Virus record (IMG/VR): IMGVR_UViG_3300010883_000265
Location: 1-30,436 of that record
Direction: 5' to 3' (one strand)
DNA length: 30,436 bases
From: a virus
Below, piece after piece: positions 3,069-29,649 of the stretch. Each line of letters opens with the position of its first letter. Position 1 is the first letter of the stretch. The notes under the pieces are model-generated. The model was not told the DNA's origin. It worked only from the letters and a program-made list of their open reading frames with translations, and searched no databases. A program made the position numbers and the translations under genes.

Positions 3069-5591
3069 TTAATTAGACATCCATGTCCAACTTACGTGGA
3101 CAGTCTCTCCTGTTCTGTTCTCAAACTGCACCTTTGAAGCATCGCACCCGCCAACATTAAAAGTCGCGTCAGAGCCAGCCGTTCCAGTCAATGCCAACGT
3201 AGTAACTGCAAAGGTGTAGCCATCTCCACCCTGCGATACTAGCGTGACCGATTCGGCGGCACCATTTATAAATCTCCCGGCGATAATAGCAAACGACACC
3301 TTATCGCCATCCGAGGCTCTGTCGATGTTAATGAATAGAACTCCAACTGTGCGATTGGTATAAATATCAACCGCAGCGTCATCGGCAAGATTCACATACC
3401 TGCCACCATTTATGCCATTTCCCACCGTCGATGCGCTGGACCCCGGCCCTGTCAGCACAAGCCCACGTTCTGCTATGGCATTGCCCTGAGTGGTGTCGGT
3501 GATGTGGATGCGGCCAAGAGTGGGTGCGGCACCTACGCCGAGGTCCGCACCGAACACGGCATCTTTTACCACTCCAAGTCCACCAGCAGTCTTTAGCGAA
3601 GCTTCGGTAGTGCTTGTGGCATCCGTTGCATCAGACGTAGATAGCACTCCAGTTGCAGATGCTGCCCCCGTCACCGTCATCGCACCAGAAGCCAGAGTCC
3701 CGGTCGTTGTCAACGCTTCATCGCCAAAGGAGATCGCACCAGTGACTGATGTCACACTCCCCGTTCCAATAGCCAGATCCGATGCCGCTGTGAATGTCGT
3801 AGTCGCTGTTGCAGCACCCGTCACCGTAAGCGCACCGGATGCTAGAGTCCCAGTGGTACTCAGGTTCTCCGCGCCGAAGGAGATGGCCGCACCGTCTGAG
3901 GTGATGCTCCCATCCGCAAGAGTTAGATCCCCCATCTTCGATCCGGTGATACCGGTGAGTATCCCTCCGGTTACGGCAAGGGTATTCGAGGAGTGCGTTA
4001 CAACAACATCTCCAGCTTCGAAGTTTATAACGCCGCCCGTGTTCAGAAACAGATCCGAGAACTCGGTGCCTGAAGCCCCAAGCGCACCACCATCATCAGC
4101 ATTGGGTAGAATAGCACCGGTAACCGTCAGCACACCCGAAGCCAGGGTCCCCGAGGTACTGAGGTTCTCTACGCCGAATGATATGGCTACGGAGGAAGAT
4201 GTGATAGAACCATCAGCCAGGGTCAGATCCCCGACCGTAGTAAGGCTAGGAAATCCCGTGGTGCTCGTCGAGGAGAGCGTGGTAAAGGCTCCGGTAGAAG
4301 CTGAGGCAGAACCTACTGTGGTGCCATCGATCGAACCACCGTTAATGTCTGCAGTCGCTACTGATCCAAGATCCGTCACCGTGGGAGCCGATGTAGCTCC
4401 AATCGTTACCCCGTCAATGGTTCCACCGTTAATGTCAGCGGTGGTAACGGTACCCAGGTTCGTAACGGTGGGTGCTACTGTCGCTCCGATTGTTACACCA
4501 TCTAAAGTCCCACCATTTATATCCGCTGTGGTTACGGTACTCAGGTCAGCCCAGGTACCCGTAATCGTTACTGCGTTAGCCAGGGTCCAGGCTGAAGGGT
4601 TAATGGTTAAGGCATCTCCCGTGGCATTACCAACGATCGTGTTGCCCGTGGATGTCAGATCCGTAAAGGTACCCGCTGCTGCCGTATTCGATCCTATGAT
4701 ACCGTCAAGATCCGTTGCCGATACATCACCCGCGATTGTAAGAGTACCTGAACTGTGGGTCACAGTTAGATTCGAAGCCCCAAAGTCCAGTACCGCGCCC
4801 GAAGTGAAGAACATATCGTCCCCCACGTAGGCATCTTTAAACCAGGCAATCCCACCGGCTGTCTTTAAGGAAGCCGCTGTGGTTGTAGTGGCTTCAGTTG
4901 TGTCCGAGGTTGACAGAATCCCAGTAAAGGAACCCGCGCCAGTGATCGTCATCGCACCGCTTGCGAGGGTGCCCGTGGTGGTCAGGTTCTCTGCTCCGAA
5001 ACTGATAGCCGCCCCAGCAGAGGTTATCGACCCATCAGCAAGGGTCAGGTCGCCCATCTTCGATCCGGTAATGCCTGTCAGTATCCCACCTGTAACCGCT
5101 AATTGGTTCGCGGAATGCGTGAGAACCACATCGCCGTCGAAGAAGTCAATGATAGATCCCGTGGTCTTCAGCTTCAAATCGTCGCCCACTATGACGTCGC
5201 CACCGTTAATCTTGATGGAGAATGTCCCTCCTGCTACCACTCCAAGCGTGTCTTCGGATACCCTGTAGGCGCCTGTGTTTGGGTCGGCGAAGAAGGAAAT
5301 CCCGGGCAGTGCGGCTGTGCCATTGGGAAACCAGGAGCGGCCCGTGACTCTCAAGGAGTCGAATTTCCCCAATCCATTGACCAGCATACTGTCACCATCG
5401 GCTATCGTGAACGTAGACCCGCCACCCAGGAAGTTGTTGATGATGTAGTTTGTCCATTGGGTGAAGGAGTTGTTCAGATCGTCCTTCGTGAGCACCTCTT
5501 TCCCGAATGTTTTATAGACTGTGGGCTGCGTGACCGCCAAAGCCTGTATCGGCAAAAGGGCAAGCAGGGCTATGAGTAGGAAGCGTTTCAT
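3069..5591 (-). CDS. Repeat-rich fibre-like protein with Sec signal peptide
   Basis: This 840-residue protein begins with a textbook signal peptide (MKRFLLIALLALLPIQALA, cut before VTQ). Most of it (residues 150-660) is made of Ser/Thr/Gly/Ala-rich beta repeats. A unit built on GDLTLADGSITS and TLASGAMTITGA occurs four times (near 180, 454, 554 and 605, the last diverged). A unit containing TADINGGTIDGVTIGAT occurs three times (near 354, 382 and 412). The C-terminal 150 residues are not repetitive and may form a trimeric head or binding domain. Position after the nozzle gene and the beta-repeat shaft point to a tail fibre or other adhesive fibre. The signal peptide is odd for a tailed-phage fibre, which normally folds in the cytoplasm. 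It could instead be exported to the host surface. Confidence 0.85.
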   Translation of the reverse strand: MKRFLLIALLALLPIQALAVTQPTVYKTFGKEVLTKDDLNNSFTQWTNYIINNFLGGGSTFTIADGDSMLVNGLGKFDSLRVTGRSWFPNGTAALPGISFFADPNTGAYRVSEDTLGVVAGGTFSIKINGGDVIVGDDLKLKTTGSIIDFFDGDVVLTHSANQLAVTGGILTGITGSKMGDLTLADGSITSAGAAISFGAENLTTTGTLASGAMTITGAGSFTGILSTSDTTEATTTTAASLKTAGGIAWFKDAYVGDDMFFTSGAVLDFGASNLTVTHSSGTLTIAGDVSATDLDGIIGSNTAAAGTFTDLTSTGNTIVGNATGDALTINPSAWTLANAVTITGTWADLSTVTTADINGGTLDGVTIGATVAPTVTNLGTVTTADINGGTIDGVTIGATSAPTVTDLGSVATADINGGSIDGTTVGSASASTGAFTTLSSTSTTGFPSLTTVGDLTLADGSITSSSVAISFGVENLSTSGTLASGVLTVTGAILPNADDGGALGASGTEFSDLFLNTGGVINFEAGDVVVTHSSNTLAVTGGILTGITGSKMGDLTLADGSITSDGAAISFGAENLSTTGTLASGALTVTGAATATTTFTAASDLAIGTGSVTSVTGAISFGDEALTTTGTLASGAMTVTGAASATGVLSTSDATDATSTTEASLKTAGGLGVVKDAVFGADLGVGAAPTLGRIHITDTTQGNAIAERGLVLTGPGSSASTVGNGINGGRYVNLADDAAVDIYTNRTVGVLFINIDRASDGDKVSFAIIAGRFINGAAESVTLVSQGGDGYTFAVTTLALTGTAGSDATFNVGGCDASKVQFENRTGETVHVSWTWMSN
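3813..4013 (-). repeat. Fibre gene long repeat, copy 2
   Basis: This segment encodes residues 527-593 of the fibre-like protein. It carries the same 67-residue block as 4935-5135, with about seven substitutions, mostly conservative (for example L/V, A/S, M/L). Confidence 0.75.
4935..5135 (-). repeat. Fibre gene long repeat, copy 1
   Basis: This segment encodes residues 153-219 of the fibre-like protein (from GDVVLTHSANQ to TGTLASGAMTITGA). It matches the segment at 3813-4013 at about 60 of 67 amino-acid positions, which points to internal duplication within the gene. Confidence 0.75.
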
Positions 5592-18072: not shown

Positions 18073-18459
18073 TTATGGTTTGTCTGACATATGCCATCGC
18101 CGGGGGTCTACGGGTATCCCTGTGTTCATATCCACCTGTACTGCCCGATCGTCCCACAGCTCGATCATGCCATAGTCCTTGACGTTGGTGATCGGCAACT
18201 CCTGGCCTATGTGCTCCTTGCACCAGGCCCGGATATAACTCTTCACCTCTTCTACGTCTCGCCATTTCTCTTCGTCAGGACTGTGACCGGGTTCCCCGTT
18301 CCAAATACGTGCGGTGAAGATCCGGACATCCTTGCCATCTTCCAGCCAGTTCTTGACCCTGGTCACCATCCTCACGATAGGCTTTCCGATGTTCTCGGGG
18401 CCTCCCCATCCGTGGTATTCTGCCAGTGTGCCATCTAAATCTACACCGATCCATCCCAT
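18073..18459 (-). CDS. HAD-superfamily phosphatase
   Basis: This 128-residue protein has the HAD motifs in order: GVDLDGTLA (motif I, nucleophile Asp and DxDGT, residues 5-13), an IFTARI segment (motif II Thr, about 51-56), and LWDDRAVQVD (motif IV acidic pair, near 105). It has no cap domain, so it probably acts on a large or exposed substrate such as a nucleic-acid end or nucleotide, like the phosphatase part of phage polynucleotide kinase. The substrate is not predictable here. The start at 18459 follows AAAGGAGATGAG. The 87 bases upstream hold no gene. Confidence 0.8.
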   Translation of the reverse strand: MGWIGVDLDGTLAEYHGWGGPENIGKPIVRMVTRVKNWLEDGKDVRIFTARIWNGEPGHSPDEEKWRDVEEVKSYIRAWCKEHIGQELPITNVKDYGMIELWDDRAVQVDMNTGIPVDPRRWHMSDKP

Positions 18460-18546
18460 GATCTCATCTCCTTTGGAGGGAAGGCACTGCGGACGCCGGT
18501 TCAAGGGCTTTCGCGCCAATCCGTTGCCGGCAGGCCTCCCCTATGA

Positions 18547-18837
18547 TTAAATAGGTACTCCAAGGCGGCGAAAGAGATCCTCGAGCGAGTTGAGTCTCGC
18601 GTCGAAAAAGTCGGCGGCTTCTCCCAGGTCGGTTTTAAGTCGATTCACGATACCTGGAGCTGGTGGACAGGCTTCTTTTGCCAAATCCCCACGCGACTCT
18701 CCCCAGAAATAGCCCTTGGCCGCGTCTTCCGTGGTTTCGAGTCGATTCAGGGCGTTCTCTATCCTCCCTGTAAGCCCATGCAGTTCGTCGAGGTCGGGCG
18801 CCCTGTCCTTCTCGGTCCTCTGTGCCTCACTTCCCAT
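18547..18837 (-). CDS. Helical small protein (96 aa)
   Basis: This soluble, mostly helical protein starts at 18837, six bases after GGAGGT, overlapping the end of the glycosyltransferase C-terminal gene by 11 bases. It has heptad-like Leu spacing in two stretches (LDELHGLTGRIENALNRLE and a C-terminal LNSLEDLFRRLG), with a Pro-rich loop between (CPPAPG). The family is unknown. It ends the coupled chain, since a gap of 87 bases follows. Confidence 0.75.
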   Translation of the reverse strand: MGSEAQRTEKDRAPDLDELHGLTGRIENALNRLETTEDAAKGYFWGESRGDLAKEACPPAPGIVNRLKTDLGEAADFFDARLNSLEDLFRRLGVPI

Positions 18838-19264
18838 GTCTGACCTCCAATACAAGTGTTTGTGGGGCTTCCTTCCCCCATTTTACCCAGAATTCTTTCG
18901 GGTGTGCCTCCATTGCCGGCACGAGATACCTGCTTGTAGCGGTGTATCCGATGTTCTCTGCCACTACGTGTGTGGCGCCATTCTCTCTCAGGTGTGCCAC
19001 GACTGAATCCGGATCGGCCCAGGCGTAAAGGAAGGTCTTGCGCCCTGACAGGATATGAAAGAGCATAGGTTTCCTGGTGCCGACTACCGCGGACTCTGGG
19101 GTATTGTCCCGCATCCACTCTGCGGCCTCGAAGTATCTCTCCCATCCATAGGGGTAGACTCGAGGTTTCCGCATCTCTACCGCGAGAGATGACACGTTGG
19201 GCAACAGGAGGCATAGGAGCAGGAAGATTTTGATCAGCGCACTCCCGCTTCCATCCTCACGCAT
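18827..19264 (-). CDS. Glycosyltransferase GT-C, separate C-terminal periplasmic part
   Basis: This 145-residue protein begins with a hydrophobic segment (ALIKIFLLLCLLLPNVSSLA), then a soluble domain. WERYFEAAEWMRDNTPESA, then GTRKPMLFHILSGRKTFLY and ENGATHVVAENIGYT, are characteristic of the C-terminal domain of bacterial PMT/ArnT-like (GT39/GT83, PMT_2) enzymes, where it follows the last membrane helix and lies in the periplasm. Here it is its own gene. The membrane part (19665-20402) and N-terminal part (20829-21260) lie upstream in the same order, with two small genes in each gap. The start is uncertain (ATG at 19264, possibly 19294). The first helix could act as signal peptide or last membrane helix. 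Confidence 0.7.
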   Translation of the reverse strand: MREDGSGSALIKIFLLLCLLLPNVSSLAVEMRKPRVYPYGWERYFEAAEWMRDNTPESAVVGTRKPMLFHILSGRKTFLYAWADPDSVVAHLRENGATHVVAENIGYTATSRYLVPAMEAHPKEFWVKWGKEAPQTLVLEVRHGK

Positions 19265-19485
19265 TTGGCCATTGTCCACTTTACCTTCCTCCATATGACG
19301 ATCTTCTCGAGCCACCCGAATTTGAATTCTGAAGGCCTCGATACCTCGAAGCCTGTGTAACCGTTGCCTACCCACAGCGCGAATCCTGAGTCGTGCGTGG
19401 CTTTGTACTCGCCAAACTCCCACCTGGCGGGGTCATCCAGCAGGTCCATCGTCAGCTGGCCTAACTCAGAGTGCTCGATCTTCAT
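19234..19485 (-). CDS. Small protein inside the split glycosyltransferase locus (83 aa)
   Basis: This 83-residue soluble protein starts with an ATG inside the end of the upstream gene (20-base overlap). It has an acidic start, a beta-rich centre (GFALWVGNGYTGFEVSRP) and a basic Trp/Lys-rich end (FGWLEKIVIWRKVKW). The centre resembles the small beta-folds that describe a protein-variant 'value display' in host proteins, but I cannot place it in a family. It lies between the membrane part and the C-terminal part of the glycosyltransferase and overlaps the latter's start region. Confidence 0.65.
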   Translation of the reverse strand: MKIEHSELGQLTMDLLDDPARWEFGEYKATHDSGFALWVGNGYTGFEVSRPSEFKFGWLEKIVIWRKVKWTMAKCVRMEAGVR

Positions 19486-19672
19486 TCAGAAACCTCTTCT
19501 CGTAGTCTTTCAGGCATTCGTCGGCCCACCTTGCAGGCTCGTCTTTGTAATGACATCCTTTCTTCCCCGCCCTGGCTTCCCACGCTCGCACCCAGACCTC
19601 GGCACGTTCCCGCCTGAATTGTTCTGCTACCGCATCTCGATACGGGTCTTCTTCCGGTTCGGCGTCACCCAT
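19466..19672 (-). CDS. Small charged protein inside the split glycosyltransferase locus (68 aa)
   Basis: This 68-residue, highly charged, helical protein starts inside the last codons of the glycosyltransferase membrane part (8-base overlap). It is rich in Glu, Arg, Ala and Trp (for example RRERAEVWVRAWEARAGKKG), with two Cys. It has no membrane segment. The family is unknown. Together with the following gene it separates two parts of one ancestral enzyme. Confidence 0.65.
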   Translation of the reverse strand: MGDAEPEEDPYRDAVAEQFRRERAEVWVRAWEARAGKKGCHYKDEPARWADECLKDYEKRFLNEDRAL

Positions 19673-20402
19673 GATTCCATTTCCTTTCTATCTTCGCGTA
19701 AATGTCAGCTGCGCCATTGACCATTGCCCAATACATCAGAGGGATGACTGGCACCAGGAATCGCTTGTCGCTCCAGGCTTGCGGCCAGCATAGAATTGTG
19801 ACGCCATAGGCAACTAAGTAGAAAGCCCAGGCGTCACAGTTCCGCAACCCCCTCCACAGGCCATAGGCCAGCAGGACGTTCGTGAACAAGACCACAATGA
19901 AGGGTATCAGCGCCCATACAACCCTCTGCCACTCCGGATCGAGCAGGGGGAAGTAAAGCGCCTTGGGTATCTCTGCCAGGGTGTAGATGAGGATGTTCGT
20001 CCAGATCCTTTCGGCGAACTGCCAAAGGGTCAGTATTCCCTTCTCGGGCCGGTACGGATCGACACTCAGAAGCACGGAGGTGTATGCGGAACTCTTCAGT
20101 GACATAGCTATGACAACCACTGTGACACCCAAAGCTGCGGCGTAGAAGCGGTGCCTGAAGTAGAGGAGGGCCGCGAGGGTGACGACAAGGCTTATGCCCA
20201 CAGATCTGGCCTGGTATGCGAGAAAGGCCAGCAGGAGGCCTCCTATGAGCCACCGGGGGTAGAACCGATCCTGCTTATCGAATGCCCACAGCGCCGCCAT
20301 TGACAGGCAGAGGTAGGGGATCTCGCTCATCACCTGGCTCGAGAACAGCAACAGGTGCCCGTTGGTGAGGATCAGCAGCATCGTGGCAAGGGGGCGGGTC
20401 AT
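19665..20402 (-). CDS. Glycosyltransferase GT-C, separate multi-helix membrane part
   Basis: This 245-residue protein has about seven to eight hydrophobic helices. The opening RPLATMLLILTNGHLLLFSSQVMSEIPY matches the third-helix region of PMT/ArnT-type enzymes with its second acidic loop residue (SE). YQARSVGISL fits the later 'TRpvGl' helix and DKRFLVPVIPLMYW the last helix. It lacks the first helices and first catalytic loop, which are encoded at 20829-21260, and the periplasmic domain, encoded at 18827-19264. The start ATG overlaps the upstream stop (ATGA), so it is read as a proper gene rather than a fragment. Such enzymes transfer a sugar from a lipid carrier on the periplasmic side. Confidence 0.75.
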   Translation of the reverse strand: MTRPLATMLLILTNGHLLLFSSQVMSEIPYLCLSMAALWAFDKQDRFYPRWLIGGLLLAFLAYQARSVGISLVVTLAALLYFRHRFYAAALGVTVVVIAMSLKSSAYTSVLLSVDPYRPEKGILTLWQFAERIWTNILIYTLAEIPKALYFPLLDPEWQRVVWALIPFIVVLFTNVLLAYGLWRGLRNCDAWAFYLVAYGVTILCWPQAWSDKRFLVPVIPLMYWAMVNGAADIYAKIERKWNHG

Positions 20403-20650
20403 AGTTCTACCTGTATGATATCCGAAAGCAACTCATCGTGGAGCATCCTTTTCCACCAAGGGGGCTTTTCGTATGGAAGCATCGGCTCCCATTGTGGACA
20501 ATCTGTAGTCGAGCACAGATTTGTTCCCCTCCGGGCAAGCGCATCAGCGTTTACGCACCGTATGGTAATCGCGGCCTGGCAATAAAGGCAGTCTTGACAC
20601 CTTCGAGCCGTGGGGTCAGGCTCCCCAGAGGTGTATCTGAATTCGATCAT
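20399..20650 (-). CDS. Cys-rich small protein inside the split glycosyltransferase locus (83 aa)
   Basis: This 83-residue protein has a zinc-binding-like cluster: RCQDCLYC (near residues 17-24), one Cys at about 33, and LCSTTDC (near 46-52). A helical tail with WWKRMLHDELL follows. Both ends are coupled by ATGA overlaps, to the upstream 59-residue gene and to the glycosyltransferase membrane part. The family is not recognised. The cysteine arrangement recalls phage zinc-ribbon mini-proteins, and its position between glycosyltransferase parts 1 and 2 is unusual. Confidence 0.7.
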   Translation of the reverse strand: MIEFRYTSGEPDPTARRCQDCLYCQAAITIRCVNADALARRGTNLCSTTDCPQWEPMLPYEKPPWWKRMLHDELLSDIIQVEL

Positions 20651-20826
20651 ATACCCCCCAGGCTCAAGTCGAAGGGTCGCAGGTGTTGTCCGTAAATCAG
20701 TTGCTCCATTATTACTCGCGTCAGTTCCTTCTGGAACTGCTCGCTCTCCACGATTTCCTTGACCACCATTCTCCCCGGATCCAGCTTCCACGGCATCATC
20801 CGCAGCCGTTCGATCTCTTCTTCCAT
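20647..20826 (-). CDS. Small helical protein inside the split glycosyltransferase locus (59 aa)
   Basis: This 59-residue protein starts two bases after the stop of the glycosyltransferase N-terminal gene and ends with an ATGA overlap. It is helical and acidic at the start (MEEEIERLRMMPW), then LDPGRMVVKEIVESEQFQ and a C-terminal LIYGQHLRPFDLSLGGI. An in-frame ATG at 20850 is an alternative start. The family is unknown. Confidence 0.6.
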   Translation of the reverse strand: MEEEIERLRMMPWKLDPGRMVVKEIVESEQFQKELTRVIMEQLIYGQHLRPFDLSLGGI

Positions 20827-20828
20827 TG

Positions 20829-21260
20829 TCAATCCCAAAACTCCCTCCATACCTTTAGGCGCCAGAAGGGGCCGAATGCGTGCCGCATCTCCTTTGGTGT
20901 CAAGATCACATCTCCGACCATCCACACGTATCGCGGCATCAAGTGCCTCTCCCTGTCCACTACCGCTTGCCTTTGCGTCCACAGCCAGCAGAAGACCATC
21001 CCCAGGACGTAGAAAGCGCCTATCACCATCTTCATAGCTGTGATCGAATGGCTGACAGGGCTCAGCAGGTATGGCAGGATCGGTGGATACTTCGTGGAAG
21101 GCCTGGGAACAGGCAGGTGCGTGTAGGTCATGCCTTCGCCGGCCTCGATCGAGCGAGCCAGGATGATGAACTCCGCATTATCCCCGGAGAGAGAGAGGAG
21201 GGGATTGAACATCAGATACGCGAGGACTAATGCGGAGAGGAAGACGAGGAAGGTTTTCAT
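20829..21260 (-). CDS. Glycosyltransferase GT-C, separate N-terminal part
   Basis: This 143-residue protein starts with a membrane helix (FLVFLSALVLAYLMF), then SGDNAEFIILARSIEAGEG and a KYPPILPYLLSPV motif. This is the typical first periplasmic loop of PMT/ArnT-like (PMT_2) glycosyltransferases, with the catalytic Asp of GD and the YPP that precedes the second helix (near residues 75-98). After residue 98 the similarity ends and a basic/aromatic tail of about 45 residues follows (MPRYVWMVGDV and onward). The rest of the enzyme is in two further genes downstream. The start ATG overlaps the upstream stop (ATGA). Whether the parts reassemble as a working enzyme is unknown. Confidence 0.75.
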   Translation of the reverse strand: MKTFLVFLSALVLAYLMFNPLLSLSGDNAEFIILARSIEAGEGMTYTHLPVPRPSTKYPPILPYLLSPVSHSITAMKMVIGAFYVLGMVFCWLWTQRQAVVDRERHLMPRYVWMVGDVILTPKEMRHAFGPFWRLKVWREFWD

Positions 21261-21754
21261 TCGCAGACCGCCCTGTTTGTGTAGGTGTATCCTTGAAGTG
21301 TGATCTGTTCGTAATAGTTGTCAGGGTCATTGAAGGTTATTGTGCCATTCTCTCGGTCCACGTACCGCCCGAAATGAGATCGCTCCGTTTCCCAGGTGTA
21401 CCGCCTATCTCCTGTGTGCGGTATCACGGTGTGGATGTGGTGGCATCTCCTCTTCGGCGCATATTCTACAGCCACGGCTTTCCCTCTATCGCCTGTGGTG
21501 ACTGAAACGATGTCGTGTGTATCTGGTAAAGCGATGTACAGTGTGTCAATTTGGCTGGAAGGGGCCTCGATGGTCCCATAATACTCATCGTAAGCCTTCC
21601 CGGAAGGCTTATAGGCGTTGAATTCAGCCTGGAGCGTGTTCGATTCGTGCTGCTGGCTGGCTGCGAGTTGGCCCCAAGGGGAGATGGTGAAGATGGTCCA
21701 GCCCATTACTAAGAGCATAAAAATGCCCGAAAATACTACGGCGACCTTTTGCAT
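21257..21754 (-). CDS. Membrane-anchored protein with extracytoplasmic domain
   Basis: This 165-residue protein has an N-terminal signal anchor (residues 4-25, VAVVFSGIFMLLVMGWTIFTI) and a 135-residue beta-rich domain with many Tyr/Asp/Thr (DTLYIALPDTHDIVSV, GRYVDRENGTITFND). The domain would lie in the periplasm. The gene starts one base after a mini-gene and is coupled to the glycosyltransferase N-terminal gene. Possible roles are a partner of the split glycosyltransferase or host-surface modification; the family is not recognised. Confidence 0.75.
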   Translation of the reverse strand: MQKVAVVFSGIFMLLVMGWTIFTISPWGQLAASQQHESNTLQAEFNAYKPSGKAYDEYYGTIEAPSSQIDTLYIALPDTHDIVSVTTGDRGKAVAVEYAPKRRCHHIHTVIPHTGDRRYTWETERSHFGRYVDRENGTITFNDPDNYYEQITLQGYTYTNRAVCE

Positions 21755-21755
21755 C

Positions 21756-21833
21756 TCATTCCCTCCATATCTCGATAATTGTTTTGACGATGTAGCAACC
21801 CACTGCTATGAGGAAGACCCCCATCAGATCCAT
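21756..21833 (-). CDS. 25-residue membrane mini-protein
   Basis: A tiny frame reads MDLMGVFLIAVGCYIVKTII then EIWRE. Its ATG overlaps the stop of the upstream gene by one base (TAATG), and it ends one base before the next start, so it exactly fills the otherwise empty 78 bases. The codons also contain the GGAGGG ribosome-binding site of the next gene. It is predicted as a single membrane helix. Confidence 0.65.
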   Translation of the reverse strand: MDLMGVFLIAVGCYIVKTIIEIWRE

Positions 21834-22129
21834 TACAGCGTTGCCTTCCCCCACAGTCCTTTGGTCATCTCAGCCGACTTGATGAGGGCCAGCTGTTTGA
21901 TGTCCTCCAGCTTCAGAGCCGTGAGGAGGTCTGTGCCGTGCTCGCGCATCGTGATCTTGACCAGTTCGTCCGTTACTGCGTCCCGGGTCTGCTTGACTAT
22001 CTCCTGGAGCATAGCATCGGACATCGGCTTCTCCATGCCCTCGAGCGTGACTGTCGTTGTTGCCACGATCTTCCTCCTTACGTCATAATCGTCGCCGAAA
22101 TCCTGCTTGAGCTCCACTTCGACCTTCAT
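21833..22129 (-). CDS. Hypothetical protein (98 aa)
   Basis: This soluble 98-residue protein starts at an ATG overlapping the upstream TGA (ATGA). It has a beta-rich first part (KVEVELKQDF, then VRRKIVATTTVTLEGME) and a helical second part (MLQEIVKQTRDAVTDELVKI and on). A chaperone or dimerising partner could look like this. No family is recognised. Confidence 0.75.
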   Translation of the reverse strand: MKVEVELKQDFGDDYDVRRKIVATTTVTLEGMEKPMSDAMLQEIVKQTRDAVTDELVKITMREHGTDLLTALKLEDIKQLALIKSAEMTKGLWGKATL

Positions 22130-25211: not shown

Positions 25212-25769
25212 CTACTCCTTTTTCATGTCCCGGTATCGCTGAAGATACCAGATGGCTTTGTTGATGTCCTGTGCCTCTGTGCCTTTGTGCCGGCAACGGG
25301 CGATGTATTTGACTGCGTTGGCGAGGTGATACGGGAGATCCTGGTCCTCGATGAAGTCTATGACCTCGATCTTCCCTGTGGTGTAGTGGGGAGGATGGTT
25401 GACCAGGTCGAGCTTCCTCCTGGCGATGGTCGACCTTAAGCTCGGGCCGTTTTCATGTGGCATCTCACCTCTCTGTACCTGTGCGCCCTGTGGTACGCGA
25501 CTGCCACAGTCGACACATCTCCGCTCGGTATCCATTTTCGGCAAATTGCACCAGCAGGGGAACTCTGTGCTCTCCAGTTCGTCCAGCGAGACCTTCAATG
25601 CCTTGGCGATCCGCTCCCTGTTCTTCTTGTGCGGAGTGCAGTCCCTCTTCTCCCACCTGGAGATCGTAGCGGCGAACTCTACTGGCTCCATCTTGTCAGC
25701 CAACGCCTTCTGTGTCAATCCTCGTGCCTTACGTAAAGCCTTCATCCGTAACCCGAACGGAAAACCCAT
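25212..25769 (-). CDS. XRE helix-turn-helix / Cys4 / DUF3310 fusion protein
   Basis: The 185-residue protein has three parts. Residues 5-68 are an XRE-type helix-turn-helix (GLTQKALADKMEPVEFAATISRWE). Cys72, Cys74, Cys85 and Cys88 form a likely zinc knuckle. Residues 122-181 match DUF3310, a phage domain of unknown function that is normally a stand-alone protein (VNHPPHYTTGKIEVIDFIE, then NAVKYIARCRHKG and DINKAIWYLQRYRD). The ATG at 25769 is chosen because AGGAGG lies five bases before it. It follows the PP-loop gene after 32 bases. It may be a regulator that senses the DUF3310 ligand, but that is inference. Confidence 0.85.
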   Translation of the reverse strand: MGFPFGLRMKALRKARGLTQKALADKMEPVEFAATISRWEKRDCTPHKKNRERIAKALKVSLDELESTEFPCWCNLPKMDTERRCVDCGSRVPQGAQVQRGEMPHENGPSLRSTIARRKLDLVNHPPHYTTGKIEVIDFIEDQDLPYHLANAVKYIARCRHKGTEAQDINKAIWYLQRYRDMKKE

Positions 25770-25801
25770 GCTGCCTCCTATCGTTTTTGTGCGAAACTCT
25801 T

Positions 25802-26575
25802 TTACACATCTACCGCACAACCACATCCACCCCATTCGTGGACATCGAACTCCAGCTGTGCCTCCATATTCTCACGGAATTCACGCAGGGACATCGCCCT
25901 TACCTTCCCTCCGGTCCTGTCGCGCAAGATACTGTAGTCACCGATCCGTTTCCGCAAGGCTTCTTCCTGTTCTTCGTGCCACGCATAACGCTCTGGCATT
26001 ACCCTGAGAAGGTGTGCGAAATGGGCTTGGCCAGCTTTTATGCAAAATCCCCCACAGTTGTTGTGAGGGAATCCCATTGCATAGAGGCGAGGCGGCGCGA
26101 TGCCTTCCGATACCAACCACTCGATCATCTGGGTCTTGGTCAGATATGGCTTTTCGGCCATAGGTGCCTCGTATCTCCACGGGGCACATCGGTCGTTTAT
26201 CCTGTCCACCCTGTGCTGTTCGTCCCACGACAGACCCAGGTAGATGGTCGAATCCTCCTGTGAGCAATTCGCATTTCTCCACTTATCCAACAATTCCCTC
26301 TTCAGGATCCTGCTACACATATCTGCTCTTGTGTTGGCGATGTAGTTGTTGTCCTGCATCACTTCCCACGGGTTGCGGCCATCGGCTATCCGGATCAGTT
26401 CAGACCCCACATTCTCGGCACCTTCTTCCAGGAACCTGTACAGGTCTTCGTCCTCCATATTCGTGTCTGAGAACAACAGCACGACATTCTCCGGACCTTC
26501 CTTCTCTGCTACCCGTTTAGCTGCGGCCCACGAACATATGCCACCCGAAAACATCACTACGTGCTTGTGCCCCAT
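25802..26575 (-). CDS. PP-loop (PAPS reductase / adenine nucleotide alpha-hydrolase-like) protein
   Basis: This 257-residue protein has the PP-loop SGGICSW (residues 10-16), a variant of SGGxDS in which Cys-Ser replaces Asp-Ser, then a strand VVLLFSDTNMEDED (32-44) as in phage PAPS-reductase-like proteins. A Cys motif NNCGGFCIKAGQ lies at 172-183 and a C-terminal GGCGC at 249-253, typical of this phage family. Related enzymes activate adenylated or sulfur-bearing substrates (PAPS reductase, DndC, tRNA thiolases). The true substrate is unknown. The start follows GAGGT by six bases and lies three bases after the terminase stop. It has neighbours in DNA modification, but no other dnd-like gene is visible. 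Confidence 0.8.
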   Translation of the reverse strand: MGHKHVVMFSGGICSWAAAKRVAEKEGPENVVLLFSDTNMEDEDLYRFLEEGAENVGSELIRIADGRNPWEVMQDNNYIANTRADMCSRILKRELLDKWRNANCSQEDSTIYLGLSWDEQHRVDRINDRCAPWRYEAPMAEKPYLTKTQMIEWLVSEGIAPPRLYAMGFPHNNCGGFCIKAGQAHFAHLLRVMPERYAWHEEQEEALRKRIGDYSILRDRTGGKVRAMSLREFRENMEAQLEFDVHEWGGCGCAVDV

Positions 26576-28754: not shown

Positions 28755-28903
28755 CACTTCCCCTTGTTCTTCTTGCGCTTGTTCCTGGCTCTCCGTGCAT
28801 CGTCTGGAGTCTCGGGTGTGTGTCCATCCCACTTGAAGTTGTTACGGAAGCAGCCTGCCCCTGCGCCTACTGCTATCATGAACTCTACGAATCCACCTCT
28901 CAT
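28754..28903 (-). CDS. Small basic protein (49 aa)
   Basis: This 49-residue protein starts with an ATG overlapping the methyltransferase stop (ATGA) and ends one base into the terS start. It has a short Gly/Ala-rich hydrophobic part (FVEFMIAVGAGAGCF) and a strongly basic C-terminus (RRARNKRKKNKGK). It may bind DNA or the membrane. The family is not recognised. Confidence 0.7.
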   Translation of the reverse strand: MRGGFVEFMIAVGAGAGCFRNNFKWDGHTPETPDDARRARNKRKKNKGK

Positions 28904-29649
28904 ATCGGCTCCTCCACCATCTGGAGCCTGTCGCGCTCCATTATCAGTTGGCCTATGTATTCGGCGCACTGTGGCACGACGGCGTTTCCGAGGGACTTAA
29001 GTCGGTCCAGTCCAGAGGAAAGTCCATCAGCCATTCGTATAGGTGGTGGCTCAGTGATCCACGGCCCCCCAACCATGACAGTTGCTCCGGCAATGACCCT
29101 GCGGATCTTTTGCCTTTCCTTCGCTTGAACATCGGCCAGGAGAGTCCAGTCCTCATGTAATCCGATGCTTGAGGGGTAAGCAACCAGGAATACCCTTTCT
29201 CTGTGATGGGGCGCACCAAACATGGAAGCTGATAGCACTGTCCATTCCGCATCATACCCGCTTTCTGCCAGGTCTGAGAGAACTCTACCCATCCCGTCAG
29301 TAAGCAAGCCTGTGACGTTCTCCACGAGGATGAATCTGGGTCGTAACTCGCAAACGATTCGGTGGTATTCAAACCAGAGACCAGATCGCGTTCCTTCTCT
29401 AATCCCTGCTCGTTGCCCTTGTTGACTAACGTCTTGGCAGGGGAAGCCACCTGCGATGAGGTCGACAGGCTCAAGGTTATCTGCTCCAACGGTTCTGACA
29501 TCTTCATACCTCCTTACATCGGGCCAGTGTTTTGCCAGCACCTTGCGGCAGAAAGGGTCTATCTCTACCTGCCATTTACATTCCATCCCTGCGCGGTCCA
29601 GACCCAGGTCGATGCCGCCTATACCACTGAACAGGCTACCGTAGGTCAT
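28900..29649 (-). CDS. DNA cytosine-5 methyltransferase (short phage form)
   Basis: At 249 residues it has the m5C motifs in order: FSGIGGIDLGL (I, residues 7-17), GGFPCQDVS (IV, catalytic Cys71), ENV (VI, 110-112), HHRERVFLVAY (VIII, 148-158) and LGNAVVPQ (X, 220-227). The target-recognition region between VIII and X is only about 50 residues, far shorter than in host enzymes (usually 320 residues or more). It transfers methyl from S-adenosyl-methionine to cytosine C5, probably protecting phage DNA from restriction. The start overlaps the upstream stop (ATGA). A 182-codon frame shifted by +1 lies inside it (see the separate entry), so much of this gene is dual-coding. Confidence 0.9.
   Translation of the reverse strand: MTYGSLFSGIGGIDLGLDRAGMECKWQVEIDPFCRKVLAKHWPDVRRYEDVRTVGADNLEPVDLIAGGFPCQDVSQQGQRAGIREGTRSGLWFEYHRIVCELRPRFILVENVTGLLTDGMGRVLSDLAESGYDAEWTVLSASMFGAPHHRERVFLVAYPSSIGLHEDWTLLADVQAKERQKIRRVIAGATVMVGGPWITEPPPIRMADGLSSGLDRLKSLGNAVVPQCAEYIGQLIMERDRLQMVEEPI
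28953..29501 (-). CDS. Overlapping +1-frame protein inside the methyltransferase gene
   Basis: A second frame of 182 codons, wholly inside the methyltransferase gene, starts at the ATG at 29501 (or at 29507). Its AAGGAGG is seven bases before the 29501 start, an ideal ribosome-binding site for this frame. The protein has segments I recall from proteins encoded beside phage cytosine methylases: ASPAKT near the start, SSWRTSQACLLTGW, AGMMRNGQCYQLP and a C-terminal EWLMDFPLDWTDL. The last is the same DNA that encodes ADGLSSGLDRLKSL of the methyltransferase. Both frames therefore keep family-typical patterns, which argues for two products. Function unknown; it could assist target recognition or the methylation reaction. 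Confidence 0.6.
   Translation of the reverse strand: MSEPLEQITLSLSTSSQVASPAKTLVNKGNEQGLEKERDLVSGLNTTESFASYDPDSSSWRTSQACLLTGWVEFSQTWQKAGMMRNGQCYQLPCLVRPITEKGYSWLLTPQASDYMRTGLSWPMFKRRKGKRSAGSLPEQLSWLGGRGSLSHHLYEWLMDFPLDWTDLSPSETPSCHSAPNT
29509..29515 (-). promoter_or_regulatory. Internal ribosome-binding site in the methyltransferase gene
   Basis: AAGGAGG, a perfect Shine-Dalgarno sequence, lies in the methyltransferase coding region (codons for VRRY) seven bases before the ATG at 29501 of the +1 frame. It is one base before the ATG at 29507, which is too close, so 29501 is the likely start. Confidence 0.6.

Follow-up and report, generated by a model that had tools for sequence, protein, structure and literature searches.

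While enzymes of the GT-C glycosyltransferase superfamily are usually, albeit not by strict definition, encoded as a single polypeptide, the virus genome studied here carries such an enzyme distributed over three open reading frames (ORFs). The IMG/VR virus record IMGVR_UViG_3300010883_000265 was analysed over its complete length of 30,436 bases (the window). On its minus strand the parts A (20829..21260), B (19665..20402) and C (18827..19279) follow one another in the order of one ancestral enzyme; they are separated by stops or lie in separate frames, and small genes fill both gaps, s1 and s2 the first, s3 and s4 the second. We propose that a phage GT-C gene was split twice by small phage genes and that the three chains most likely reassemble into one active enzyme, a reading to which we assign a probability of roughly 0.6 and which draws on sequence comparison, structural modelling and analogy with other split membrane proteins. 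It builds on the common descent and collinearity of the parts, their open frames with start signals, the retention of motifs and the position of both breaks in loops. An original prediction had described the three ORFs in this order with two small genes in each gap, and its interpretation was largely supported, with the amendments given below.

The alignments, together with the modelled fold of a homologue, identify A, B and C as consecutive pieces of one PMT/ArnT/STT3-type GT-C protein. When the parts were aligned separately to a single protein from Bacteroidia (L003), residues 4-93 of A fell on positions 17-111, residues 20-230 of B on 139-360 and residues 22-142 of C on 399-518. Whole-genome searches with a joint query of 476 amino acids, composed of A (residues 1-98), B and C, matched 151 of 593 genomes at E <= 1e-8, namely 121 of the 298 from Gemmatimonadota and 30 of the 295 from Bacteroidia. 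Chance is excluded by this number of genomes and by the best matches, in which a single unbroken bacterial ORF accounts for almost the full query (best E 1e-57). Full-length relatives were also returned by an alignment scan of bacterial genomes with the joint query, and a Gemmatirosa plasmid protein was matched over 80% of its length (E 0.01). Thus the three products do not belong to unrelated families but align to one bacterial protein family, with an identity of about 30% for the joint sequence and of 43% over 105 amino acids between C and the homologue L010; the identities of the individual parts are too even to reveal separate origins. At the first junction no residue is clearly missing compared with the homologues. 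Three apparent partial homologues (G042, G044, G237) were discarded as contig ends or a masked gap.

The homology becomes visible only via bacterial intermediates. Pfam and PHROG scans with A, B and C individually gave nothing useful, neither the parts nor the joint sequence passed the curated Pfam cut-offs of PF02366 and PF13231, and a phmmer search of the PDB with the joint sequence returned a STT3-related entry at E 0.88 as its sole match. The homologues themselves do match these families, as the bacterial homologue L004 reaches 24.6 bits on PF02366 (cut-off 22.7) and PF13231 is matched down to 6e-11. The assignment as a PMT/ArnT-type enzyme therefore stands as far as GT-C descent and the fold of the homologue are concerned, while the label PMT_2 holds by descent only and the protein is filed at superfamily level, since the phage parts miss the Pfam cut-off. 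As a separate observation on these homologues, the Bacteroidia versions L003 and L117 are extended at the C-terminus by what look like MORN-like repeats. The record named Microcystis phage MaAM05 (L001, MW495066.1) holds a GT-C gene, an rgtE-like gene and a guanine deaminase; this stretch may be bacterial DNA, given the close similarity of its GT-C to the one in Vampirovibrio chlorellavorus (L016).

When the homologue L004 was modelled from an alignment that included A, B and C as rows, the GT-C fold was obtained (predicted local distance difference test, pLDDT, 92). The nearest solved structures to this model were STT3 of oligosaccharyltransferase (2.5e-9), ArnT (8.6e-8) and Pmt4 (5.4e-5), and ALG12, DPY19 and PglB were also found. 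GT-C enzymes share a topology of 11 transmembrane (TM) helices with conserved luminal extracytoplasmic loops EL1, EL2 and EL3 and a mostly luminal C-terminus, and four extracytoplasmic motifs common to them have been defined (PMC6801728). On the L004 model the first junction falls at residue ~103, between the helices 78-104 and 107-118, and the second in the stretch 347-360, where the last long helix begins. Alignment and model thus place both breaks in loops, which, judged by the general GT-C topology, would be the cytoplasmic loops TM2/TM3 and TM10/TM11. All four catalytic-side motifs are present in the parts: the acidic motif of loop 1 as GDN with D27 in A, invariant in 29 homologues; the residues of EL2 and EL3 (acidic/R; R or K) as S124-E125 and R164 in B, invariant or nearly so; and the R/K-x4-14-P motif of the C-terminal TM cluster as R312-x6-P319, likewise in B (joint numbering). 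Among 30 columns that are at least 90% identical in the 29 homologues, the phage keeps 27 (7/9 in A, 14/14 in B and 6/6 in C, with one column in a gap), including D27, S124-E125, R164, R312-x6-P319 and the RK of the C domain, while in the remaining aligned columns the majority residue is matched at 127 of 449 positions (28%). In leave-one-out controls most intact homologues kept 28-30 of these columns and the two most distant ones 20-21.

The three parts differ in how completely they correspond to the enzyme segments that had been predicted. A encodes 143 amino acids, of which residues 1-98 contain TM1, extracytoplasmic loop 1 with GDN and YPP, and TM2, as expected for the N-terminal part. Residues 99-143 (20829..20966) are a foreign, in-frame cytoplasmic tail without a convincing relative in a phage search, in which an internal ATG at 20939 would yield a small protein of 36 amino acids. 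B (245 amino acids) spans about TM3 to TM10 with EL2, EL3 and the R-x6-P motif. C had been described as the periplasmic domain at 18827-19264; the domain is present with its NTPxxAVVxxRKP motif, and the part also includes the last TM helix and probably starts at GTG 19279 (150 amino acids) rather than at ATG 19264 (145 amino acids), as a GGAGG Shine-Dalgarno sequence lies 8 nt upstream of the former. In the first gap, s1 (20647..20826, 59 amino acids; a longer ORF containing it has no family match) is followed by the Cys-rich s2 (20399..20650, 83 amino acids). In the second gap, s3 (19466..19672, 68 amino acids) overlaps the 3' end of B, and s4 (19234..19485, 83 amino acids) overlaps both s3 and the start of C. 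ATGA overlaps connect the upstream gene with A, s1 with s2 and s2 with B, so that A, B and C each have a start codon of their own within a tightly overlapping gene run. The Shine-Dalgarno sequence of B is AGGT, and the start of B is at most about three codons away from the homologous sequence. The ORFs of the run have no promoter- or terminator-like site between them on the coding strand. A codon-usage model trained on long genes of the same contig scored the own frame best of all six for the seven ORFs and for the tail of A, in agreement with the proper frames that had been noted before.

These features bear on the main rival explanation, in which two insertions destroyed the GT-C gene and the pieces are still open for lack of time to decay. 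About 480 GT-C codons contain neither stop nor frameshift, start codons and Shine-Dalgarno sequences are located at the fragment boundaries, with the start of B beside the homologous sequence and in overlap with s2, both breaks lie in cytoplasmic-side loops rather than at random positions, and 27 of 30 invariant residues are kept. Retained motifs, break topology and start signals speak for an intact arrangement, as the original prediction had it and as far as sequence and model can tell. In favour of recent breakage, accessory phage genes turn over fast, and an uninterrupted GT-C gene exists in bacteria and in a distantly related podovirus (L134, IMGVR_UViG_3300013137_002981). This virus encodes the enzyme in one ORF of 411 amino acids (L134:1837-3072) located about 1.5 kb upstream of its P22-type portal gene; the gene lies upstream of a P22-type portal in the window as well. 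The portals of the two viruses are 24% identical, homology extends to two further structural-region genes, and A is 45% identical over 58 amino acids to the L134 enzyme, which differs from the joint sequence by its single ORF, by shorter loops and by keeping 21 of the 30 invariant columns. In a phylogenetic tree the two group together (support 91/86), a grouping that is given moderate weight because the branches are long; when L134 was left out, the joint sequence paired with a long-branch Melainabacteria sequence, a placement that was not trusted. The likely history is that a phage GT-C gene at this position was split in the lineage of the window.

An uninterrupted gene thus exists in a distantly related phage, while the small genes are open, coding-like and overlapping instead of frameshifted debris. 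The arrangement itself was looked for in related phages and not found, in scans that may miss records very close to the window: IMG/VR alignment scans with the GT-C returned one phage relative only, the L134 enzyme, and a GT-C profile gave no match in 36 records from 80 terminase-related contigs. No split relative is known that would show that the split was kept, and a young remnant is an explanation that we consider unlikely, although it deserves more weight than any other competitor.

The inserts, about 564 and 430 bases long, are occupied by small ORFs with stops. The protein s3 belongs to phrog_13068 (E 9.7e-6) and its relatives occur in phages of Vibrio and of Pseudomonas, among them Vibrio phage D479 (47% identity over 40 amino acids); s4 shows a weak match to phrog_32552 (E 0.004); phage searches with s4 returned nothing convincing, and for s2 neither a family match nor a phage relative was found. 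Direct repeats at the insert borders were limited to short, weak pairs that resemble chance or a shared Shine-Dalgarno/start region, which argues against a target-site duplication. One alternative would be that the inserts are removed or bypassed, as group I or group II introns, as inteins or by ribosome hopping, to give one full-length protein, and it is in accordance with A and B sharing one reading frame. However, B and C lie in different frames, the inserts are full of coding-like small ORFs with stops, Rfam gave no match of any kind at E<=1 in 18400-21900, and the inserts fold no better than shuffled sequences (z -1.0 and +1.6). The gaps thus contain no recognisable intron, intein or frameshift debris and look like ordinary small phage genes, so that removal or bypass is extremely improbable. 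Marginally less remote is an assembly chimera, in which foreign reads were stitched into an intact GT-C gene: the evidence comes from a single metagenomic contig of which an independent copy was not found, but two independent inserts would be needed whose borders lie in or beside overlapping start and stop codons, and the GC fraction (0.52-0.57) and codon usage are alike across parts and inserts.

In the proposed mechanism the small phage genes would interrupt the GT-C gene where it encodes the TM2/TM3 loop and, further on, the loop ahead of the last TM helix, so that A with TM1-2 and the catalytic Asp loop, B with about TM3-10, the sugar-lipid-binding and the other catalytic-side motifs, and C with the last TM helix and the extracytoplasmic domain would become separate chains. 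Since the breaks are placed on the cytoplasmic side, each piece could begin on that side and retain its native orientation; A, B and C would be translated separately, would most likely insert one by one with a cytoplasmic N-terminus, and would reassemble into one active transferase like other split polytopic membrane proteins. A precedent is Doa10 of Kluyveromyces, in which a 508-bp insert separates TM2 from TM3 and the fragments still yield an active enzyme; reassembly also occurs in bacterio-opsin and sarcoplasmic-reticulum ATPase that were split artificially (cited in PMC3464245). As in Doa10, a polytopic membrane enzyme carries an insert of ~0.5 kb in the cytosolic TM2/TM3 loop, the breaks lie in loops assigned to the cytoplasmic side by the general GT-C topology, and the fragments are separately translatable. 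Doa10 differs in being a eukaryotic ubiquitin ligase of two parts with a non-coding insert, and its reassembly and activity have been demonstrated while those of the phage chains are predicted. The authors of the split-Doa10 study also raised the possibility that such pieces are kept for other purposes (PMC3464245). Here the C domain or A might have taken on a new role, for instance in inhibiting or diverting a GT-C enzyme of the host; separate genes can diverge in role and A gained a new tail, but the conserved motifs of all three parts were retained together, which makes this explanation improbable. That an enzyme which is elsewhere one chain works as three separately translated membrane chains after insertion of phage genes into its cytoplasmic loops appears to us slightly better than an even bet, and the inserted small proteins or the tail of A may join the complex.

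From its superfamily membership the reassembled enzyme is expected to act as a polyprenyl-phosphate-sugar transferase. This use of polyprenyl-phosphate sugars is also suggested by glycosyltransferase family 2 (GT2) genes that lie directly beside the homologues in L129 and in the MaAM05 record. The donor might be made by a GT2 enzyme of the host or by the product of a gene outside the contig, and the acceptor might be a host surface glycan or protein, such that the surface of the infected cell would be changed and, for example, superinfection would be blocked; these two steps are put forward more tentatively than reassembly. The Gtr serotype-conversion genes of Salmonella phages, which encode a phage-borne membrane transferase altering the cell surface, are a candidate for a system that works alike, and no homologue of GtrA or GtrB was recognised on the contig.

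Several findings weigh against a reassembled active enzyme. Neither a GT2 nor a flippase was recognised among the contig proteins scanned, and the IMG/VR scans revealed no second phage with the same split. B alone gave an AlphaFold model with a mean pLDDT of 82, for which a structure search found no significant fold match (E > 0.4), its top hits being a STT3-containing entry and PglB. Relative to the homologues the second junction is short of about ten loop residues, about 14 foreign residues precede the homologous sequence of C and 45 foreign residues follow that of A. Moreover, an identity of about 30% says nothing about the substrate.

The surroundings of the gene run are those of a phage. 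Essentially all likely genes of the window are carried by the minus strand, among them genes for a P22-type portal (PF16510, 4.9e-25) and a phage capsid protein (PF13252), and the large terminase is distant kin of the terminases of Roseobacter phage CRP-7 and of Vibrio phages. A terminase alignment scan yielded IMG/VR relatives (80 contigs) that are only about 28% identical, so that no close relative is known, and single-protein IMG/VR scans with B, the portal and the terminase found no relatives; the contig may be incomplete. The upstream gene (21257..21754, minus strand), which is ATGA-coupled to A, encodes 165 amino acids with a hydrophobic N-terminus and without a family match, and is a possible operon partner outside the GT-C. 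At two unrelated small genes, the ribosome-binding site together with the start codon is covered by a 20-nt direct repeat (85% identical; 18455-18474 and 19668-19687), so a translation-start cassette may have been shared or copied. Further observations concern other genes of the minus strand. A gene for a PAPS-reductase-like protein (25802-26575; phrog_424, 2.7e-49) has a counterpart of 48% identity in IMGVR_UViG_3300049044_000016, which is also the contig whose terminase matches best; no further shared gene was detected within the part compared. A fused gene (25212-25835) combines a helix-turn-helix repressor-like N-terminus with a C-terminal domain that otherwise ends phage "nucleotide kinase" families. 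A short C5 cytosine methylase gene (28900-29649; PF00145, 1e-47) is covered for the most part by an ORF of 184 amino acids in a different frame of the same strand (28953-29507), which looks protein-like as well. The gene at 3069-5591 encodes 840 amino acids of many similar internal repeats (GDLTLADGSITSxxxAISFG...) without a Pfam or PHROG match, probably a tail fibre or spike.

Glycosyltransferases of the Alg13/Alg14 type occur as one chain in some organisms and as separate chains in others; they differ from the window enzyme by their GT-B fold and by consisting of two chains of which only one is membrane-anchored. The single-chain PMT/PMT_2-type enzymes of bacteria (relatives of PF02366 and PF13231, with ArnT as a solved relative) share whole-length collinear homology, the GT-C fold and the motifs with the window enzyme, which differs from them in its three chains from three genes, the foreign genes in between, an identity of about 30% and scores below the Pfam cut-offs. 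Searches of an open-access library returned nothing relevant on split GT-C enzymes or split phage glycosyltransferases, which is weak evidence of novelty; judged from the gene arrangement, what appears to be new is a GT-C enzyme encoded in three genes. The individual parts of GT-C enzymes, which are large polytopic membrane proteins, are difficult to examine separately. If the proposal is true, a natural three-piece version with all catalytic motifs would reveal the loops at which the chain can be cut and would provide a ready modular system for studies of assembly. It would also be a rare case of a membrane enzyme that gene insertion has split twice in nature, and it would suggest that phage genomes can place accessory genes inside the gene of a membrane protein without losing that gene.

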